Positions 7,949 through 9,616 of a DNA stretch of 64,000 nucleotides are shown one piece after another. Source of the DNA: Natronosalvus halobius (GTDB taxonomy: Archaea > Halobacteriota > Halobacteria > Halobacteriales > Natrialbaceae). The first letter of the stretch is position 1; each line of letters begins with the position of its first letter. A program made the translations under genes and the position numbers. Location of the stretch: NCBI RefSeq assembly GCF_024138145.1, contig NZ_CP099997.1, forward strand, positions 1,922,001 to 1,986,000, read 5' to 3'. The notes beneath the pieces were generated by a model. It searched no databases. It saw nothing but the letters and a program-made list of their open reading frames with translations, and was not told where the DNA came from.

Positions 7949-7955
7949 GGAGGTG
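7949..7955 (+). promoter_or_regulatory. Shine-Dalgarno site of the Amt-PII gene
   Basis: GGAGGTG lies five bases before the ATG at 7961. Many genes in this window appear leaderless, so a strong ribosome-binding site marks this as a leadered mRNA and confirms the start. Confidence 0.75.
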
Positions 7956-7960
7956 CTACC

Positions 7961-9616
7961 ATGATCGATGCCACACCGTTGCAGGTCGATCCCGAGGTGC
8001 TCGTCGAGGGCGTCAACCTCGCGTGGGTGCTGACGGTCACCTTCCTGATCTTCTTCATGCACGCGGGCTTCGCCATGCTCGAGGCCGGCCAGGTGCGCTC
8101 GAAGAACGTCGCGAACCAGCTGACGAAGAATTTGCTGACCTGGAGCGTCGGCGTGACCGTGTTCTTCCTCGTCGGCGCCGGGGTCGAAGGTCTCGTCGCG
8201 GGCGACGGGTTCGTGCCGGCCTTCGACGTCGCCGAACCCAACGCGTGGGTCGACTGGCTGTTCGGCGCCGTCTTCGCGATGACGGCGGCGACCATCGTCT
8301 CCGGAGCCGTCGCCGGCCGTGCGAAACTCCGCGCGTACGTCGGCTACACATTCCTGCTGGCGGCGGTCATCTACCCGGTCGTCACCGGCCTCACCTGGGC
8401 CGGGAGCCATCTGGTCGTCGGTGGAGTCGTCTTCGAGGACTTCGCCGGCGGCATGATCGTCCACGGGATGGGCGGCATCGCCGGCCTCACCGCCGCGTGG
8501 GTCCTCGGCCCGCGCCTCGACCGCTACAACCAGGACGGGACGGTCAACGTGATCCCCGGCCACTCGATGACCTTCGCCGTGCTCGGCACGCTCGTGCTCG
8601 CCTTCGGCTGGTACGGCTTCAACGTCGGCACCGCGGCGACGGTCTTCGCACTCGAGGGCGGGGAACTCGTCCTCGGGGACTTCGCCACCGTCGGTCGCGT
8701 CGCCATGACGACGACCATCGCGATGGGCTGTGGCGCCATGGGTGCCGGGCTCGTCGCCTGGCTCAAGACCGGCAAGGTCGACACCCTGTACGTCGCAAAC
8801 GGCCTGCTCGCCGGGCTCGTCGGCATCACCGCAATTCCCCACACGACCGCCTGGTGGGGCGCGTTCGTCGTCGGCGGCCTCGCTGGCGCCCAGCTCCCGC
8901 TGGTCTTCGGCTTCGTCGAGAACGTCCTGAAGATCGACGACGTCTGTGCGGTGTTCCCTGTCCACGGCTCGGCCGGGGTCCTCGGGACGCTCCTGTACCC
9001 GTTCGTCGCCGCACCCGGCGTCGTCGAGAGCGTCGCGAACGCGTTCGCCGCACAGGTCGTCGGCGTGGCCGTCATCGCCGGCTGGACGATCCTCGCCACG
9101 GGCTTCGTCTGGGGCGCGTTCAAAGCGGTCGGCCAGGCTCGAGTTACGCCAGAACACGAACGCGACGGCCTCGACGTGAGCGAACACGGCGTCGACACCT
9201 ACCCCGAGTTCGGCACGCCCGAAGTCGCGGCCGACGGCGGTGCGATCCGGGCGGACGGCGGTACTGCAGACAGCGGCATCTGGATGGTCACCGCCATCGT
9301 CCGCCCCGACCGCCTGGGCGATGTGAAGACGAACCTCGCCGGAATCGGCGCTCCCTCGCTGACGGTCACGAACGTCTCCGGTCGCGGCTCCCAGCCCGCG
9401 AAGACCGGCCAGTGGCGCGGCGAGGAGTACGCCGTCGACCTCCACCAGAAGGTCAAGATCGAGTGCGTCGTCGCCGATGTCCCGGCCACCGAAGTCGTCG
9501 ACGCGATCCGCGAGGCCGCGAACACGGGCGAACCGGGCGACGGCAAAATCTTCGTCATCCCGGTCGAGGACGCCTGCCAGGTTCGTACGGGGGCGACTGG
9601 CCCCGAAGCCGTCTAA
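7961..9616 (+). CDS. Ammonium transporter fused to a C-terminal PII (GlnK-type) domain
   Basis: A 551-residue fusion. Residues 1 to about 400 are an Amt/Mep/Rh channel with multiple membrane helices. The twin pore histidines are at His168 ([11 protein letters not shown]) and His335 (VFPVHGSAG), and [15 protein letters not shown] is near the start. After a polar linker, residues from about 438 to the end form a complete PII protein: [25 protein letters not shown], a T-loop ending [27 protein letters not shown] for nucleotide binding, and a final RTG. Normally a separate glnK follows amtB and plugs the channel when nitrogen is plentiful. Here the plug is covalently attached, and no free glnK is next to the gene. 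The T-loop Tyr51 equivalent is kept, while the Tyr46 equivalent is Trp. Confidence 0.93.

Follow-up and report, generated by a model that had tools for sequence, protein, structure and literature searches.

An ammonium transporter-PII (GlnK) fusion gene in Natronosalvus halobius, common among haloarchaea

PII proteins are regarded as hubs that carry carbon and nitrogen status to many targets. Gates built from an ammonium transporter (Amt) and a PII protein are described as two-gene systems in E. coli (2NS1/2NUU), Haloferax mediterranei (AmtB1-GlnK1/2), and A. fulgidus (Amt-GlnK). A. fulgidus GlnK3 has defined residues that read ATP, ADP, and 2-oxoglutarate (2-OG) and position the T-loop; 2-OG with Mg-ATP spreads the T-loops until 46 Å separate the R47 residues, a span that does not fit the pores, and the distance in the E. 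coli complex is 31 Å (PMC3198391). In Haloferax, an ammonium shock is followed by binding of GlnK to AmtB in membranes (PMC3831643), and GlnK also regulates glutamine synthetase in vitro (PMC3831643; PMC11218638). A passage in PMC5764959 (citing Tremblay and Hallenbeck 2009) indicates that Amts joined to other domains had been noted before 2018, and an Amt-kinase fusion has been characterised (PMC5764959). In the open-access literature searched, we came across no paper that describes an Amt naturally joined to PII.

We analysed a stretch of 64,000 nucleotides from Natronosalvus halobius (contig NZ_CP099997.1, positions 1,922,001 to 1,986,000; hereafter the window), in which one gene had initially been annotated as an Amt with its PII regulator covalently fused. 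Like the two-gene AmtB-GlnK systems, its product has the channel fold, the pore residues, the PII fold, R47, Q39, K58, and the nucleotide site; unlike them, it is one polypeptide with fixed 1:1 stoichiometry, lacks a start signal for glnK, and resides in a genome without a free PII. The Amt part is closest, by sequence and structure, to Ks-Amt5 and Sd-Amt1, which also carry a regulator at the cytoplasmic C-terminus, but here that domain is PII rather than a histidine kinase or other signalling domain, and Q24, D50, and F34 of Ks-Amt5 are replaced. Amt-PII as a single annotated gene of identical domain order is also found in the Bacillota (Ruminococcus albus 7, Enterococcus raffinosus, Monoglobus pectinilyticus); these fusions are about 32-35% identical, are of the Q/D type at positions 34/60 (see below), and probably have an independent origin.

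Domain architecture and conserved residues

At positions 7961-9616 of the window, the analysis confirms a single gene whose product joins an entire Amt channel, through a linker, to an entire PII (GlnK) domain. The Pfam search matched PF00909 (Ammonium_transp) to residues 21-414 (E 2.1e-89, profile positions 1-399 of 399) and PF00543 (P-II) to residues 442-544 (E 1.6e-26), both far exceeding the curated cut-offs. The features are as follows.

7949..7955, plus strand: Shine-Dalgarno-like GGAGGTG, 5 bases upstream of the ATG, by direct reading of the sequence
7961..9616, plus strand: Amt-PII fusion gene; ATG start, uninterrupted frame, 551 codons plus stop
8021..9202, plus strand: Amt channel domain, residues 21-414 (Pfam), with F105, W146, D160, H168, F220, T224, and H335
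9212..9283, plus strand: linker, residues 418-441 (24 residues), which stays open in 116 fused genes
9248..9262, plus strand: tail motif R[TAS]DGG, R430-G434, inside the linker, recognised by its conservation in fused proteins
9284..9592, plus strand: PII (GlnK) domain, residues 442-544 (Pfam); nearest solved structure Haloferax mediterranei GlnK2 (4ozj)
9386..9442, plus strand: T-loop, residues 476-494, equivalent to E. coli GlnK 37-55 in the PII alignment, with the equivalents of Q39, W46, R47, and Y51

Channel residues were compared across 186 haloarchaeal Amts. The Trp, Asp, twin His, and Phe gate are invariant (W146, equivalent to W148; D160; H168 and H335, the twin histidines of the initial annotation, at the positions it gave; F105 and F220), and the S219 equivalent is T224 in this Amt. 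Two membrane positions, H34 (8060-8062) and T60 (8138-8140), vary in complete concert across the Amts that were compared, as H/T in 159 and Q/D in 40 and never mixed, with one row gapped; the nearby E41 is near-invariant. This coupling suggests a remodelled cation site that divides two Amt subfamilies.

The PII alignment comprised 186 haloarchaeal domains, 116 fused and 70 split, that is, encoded by a separate glnK. R9, Q39, R47, K58, G87, D88, G89, K90, and R103 (E. coli GlnK numbering) are invariant in the 116 fused domains and include the ligand-reading and T-loop-positioning residues of A. fulgidus GlnK3, and the T-loop Arg47 is equally present in 70/70 split ones. The PII domain studied here has the T-loop, nucleotide-binding residues, and terminal RTG first ascribed to it: K58, G87-D88-G89-K90, and R103-T104-G105 are present, and the residues for ATP/ADP and 2-OG (Q39, K58, G87-K90, R103) are intact in the alignment. 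Q39 and R47 are retained and, as initially read, Y51 is kept and position 46 is Trp; Trp46 fails as a mark of fusion, being general in haloarchaeal PII (116/116 fused, 67/70 split).

Among 64 fused proteins, the linker residues D432 and G433 never vary, and R430 is conserved in at least 90%. A loose form of R[TAS]DGG is found in 112/116 fused tails and in 48/70 split Amt tails. The motif predates fusion or is independent of it, and it may be a docking or folding element. The strict form occurs 94 times in Amt/PII proteins versus 0 in 418 neighbouring proteins, and was therefore rejected as a general haloarchaeal linker word; the DNA pattern encoding it is not enriched in the window. The motif is sometimes repeated in tandem, and Halosimplex salinum (L105) has it five times as R[TS]DGG; a segment like ERLDESRSSSELRSDGG recurs in linkers of several lineages; tails with the motif or segment include L036, L053, L061, L102, L104, L105, L132, L151, and L193.

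The host genome assembly (3.85 Mb, three contigs, 95% complete) contains two glutamine synthetase family genes. A check of this assembly for a free glnK elsewhere, as the initial annotation had proposed, detected neither a second PII nor a second Amt, leaving the fusion as the sole PII and the sole Amt detected.

A probable tethered gate and alternative readings

Because the ligand and T-loop residues of PII are kept, the likeliest function is that of the known GlnK plug, permanently tethered, and we consider it probable that the gene encodes the established Amt-GlnK gate in a covalently tethered form. The Amt trimer would consist of three chains, and their PII domains, on flexible tails of about 24 residues, would most likely assemble into one PII trimer beneath the channel. 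With ADP bound and 2-OG low, as in a nitrogen-rich cell, the Arg47-bearing T-loops would enter and shut the pores; with Mg-ATP and 2-OG bound, the T-loops would spread apart and the channel would conduct. We infer for the fusion this trimer geometry, gating, and ligand response, and a tethered T-loop that reaches the pore. The tethered plug may act at high local concentration, as initially suggested, and it is plausible that a tethered PII is unable to reach other targets; held at the membrane, it could also recruit glutamine synthetase or others there.

An AF2 single-chain model (pLDDT 81.9, pTM 0.73) shows both folds, with a disordered linker and T-loop; structural comparison gives Z 41-48 against Amt structures and Z 14.5 against Haloferax GlnK2 (4ozj). 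Confidence is low at residues 405-435, and both the linker and the T-loop (474-494) lie below pLDDT 50, which counts against a tethered gate; low pLDDT is usual for a free T-loop. Two further points weigh on the same side. Conservation of R[TAS]DGG seems higher than a passive tether would require, arguing against a simple one. With Gln at position 101, a feature shared by split haloarchaeal PII, the domain cannot make the Glu38-Lys101 salt bridge in the form described for the A. fulgidus ADP state.

A second possibility, which we judge unlikely, is that the gene yields a dual product, with free PII also made, either from an internal start at the domain-start ATG or by proteolysis of the linker, so that signalling to other targets would continue. 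There is an in-frame ATG at PII position 3 here, Met occupies that position in 96/116 fused genes, and disordered linkers are in general accessible to proteases. Met3 is, however, an ordinary residue, found also in 47/70 split PII, and a strong Shine-Dalgarno sequence precedes 42/67 split glnK starts versus 0/98 internal ATGs of fused genes, which makes an internal translation start unlikely as a general mechanism.

It is about equally improbable that the Amt part mainly senses external ammonium, with PII as the output domain, in the manner of Ks-Amt5, whose Amt is joined to a histidine kinase. The closest solved relatives are indeed the sensor Amts Ks-Amt5 (E 7e-47) and Sd-Amt1 (E 8e-39), with A. 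fulgidus Amt-1 at 1e-24, and E41, N57, and T111, which correspond in the alignment to some of the ammonium-site residues of Ks-Amt5 (E31, N47, T109), are near-invariant in the Amts compared. These three residues are nevertheless shared with the split Amts of haloarchaea and with most of the methanogen Amts sampled, and are therefore markers of a broad Amt clade. Ks-Amt5 Q24, D50, and T51 are replaced by H34, T60, and W61, and T112 by the similar S114, leaving the residue set of a Ks-Amt5-type sensor (Q24, E31, N47, D50, T51, T109, T112) incomplete; Q44 stands here in place of the bulky F34, which contributes to closing the pore of Ks-Amt5, and the classical transport residues are intact. The tethered gate remains the reading we prefer.

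Distribution and history of the fusion

The architecture, initially taken to be exceptional, proved to be common. Among 106 haloarchaeal genomes drawn evenly, with loci read one by one, 97 encode PII: 58 only fused to Amt, 37 only as an adjacent amt-glnK pair, and 2 both ways. Amt-PII fusion is real and common among haloarchaea, and often no free PII is encoded; in most fused lineages the fusion is the only PII. In the host's family, all 23 PII-bearing genomes of the even sample are fused-only; six genomes of the family have no detectable PII (G032, G043, G047, G101, G208, G361). Among 80 named loci, fusions occur in Natrinema, Natrialba, Natronorubrum, Haladaptatus, Halorussus, Halopenitus, Halalkalicoccus, Halostella, and others. 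Natrinema versiforme has both states in different strains, a split pair on plasmid pNVE500 of BOL5-4 (L233) and a fused gene in JCM 10478 (L052). A phylum-wide search outside the class returned only split pairs among the full-length matches listed, all with at least one in-frame stop.

That two genes were merged by an assembly or sequencing error, or by a quirk of annotation, has a precedent in a single amtB2/glnK2 ORF of one Haloferax mediterranei assembly that was treated as misannotated (PMC11218638), but this explanation is almost certainly wrong here, because all six congeners with a PII match are also fused (one open frame, 559-594 aa), and it is contradicted as well by 116 distinct fused genes gathered from independent assemblies, by the lost Shine-Dalgarno sequence, and by substitution of a coding type in the linkers. 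Between this gene and two close congeners, the PII codons differ by 15-16 synonymous changes and by no nonsynonymous one. Across 51 closely related pairs of fused genes, substitution is faster in the linker than in the domains, and linker changes concentrate at third codon positions (0.27 versus 0.08 at second).

Where the two genes are split in haloarchaea, glnK follows amt directly, and its start overlaps the amt stop by 8 bases in 38/67 pairs and by 4 bases in 22/67. The two genes share a frame in only 5/70 split pairs, and fusion therefore usually needs a small, frame-restoring local change. The fused linker resembles an Amt tail (..IRTDGG) followed by the N-terminal extension of a separate GlnK (..PNDGGIKM); from YPEF to PII, fused tails measure 19-84 residues (median 28.5), and the split Amt tail has a median of 28. 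Fusion probably arose from an overlapping, translationally coupled amt-glnK pair in which an indel deleted the amt stop and put glnK in frame, and both fusion and splitting recur in haloarchaea.

On an Amt gene tree of 82 sequences with 200 bootstrap trees, the state changes between fused and split at least 13 times, 6 of these changes being forced by strongly supported branches; a single origin of fusion was recovered in 0/200 bootstrap trees. One fused group (L086, L202, L205) belongs to a different Amt subfamily, set apart by a deep divergence. The tree accommodates changes in either direction: if its root is taken as split, the minimum is 13 changes in all, 17 fusions if splitting is forbidden, or, alternatively, one fusion and 17 splits. 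Splitting of fusions probably also occurs, judged from Halosimplex: in Halosimplex pelagicum (L084) and H. carlsbadense (L103), glnK is in frame with amt past a single TGA, and its N-terminal extension contains EIRTDGG units like those of the fused linker of H. salinum. Two loci of another genus (code g43), L126 and L147 (genomes G040 and G078), are also in-frame split pairs with a single stop between; L084, L103, L126, and L147 are each one base change away from fusion.

Implications for PII in haloarchaea

Fused haloarchaeal open reading frames should not be set aside as annotation errors. The Halorubrum lacusprofundi ammonium transporter Hlac_2623 is up 3.3- to 8.3-fold in biofilm proteomes; one of the genomes with a fused gene (G065) may be that of H. 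lacusprofundi, and in that case proteomics has already recorded the product of a fused gene.

A broader reading, which we hold only tentatively, is that in more than half of haloarchaea PII may no longer be a diffusible messenger but a channel subunit, which R[TAS]DGG would dock, with fusion and splitting toggling between a private and a global PII. For work on structure and transport, the fusion also provides an Amt-GlnK complex that is naturally a single chain and whose stoichiometry is fixed. Dozens of haloarchaeal species have their only detected PII tied to an ammonium channel while close relatives have a free PII, and the functions of PII that are dispensable are therefore directly testable in these organisms.
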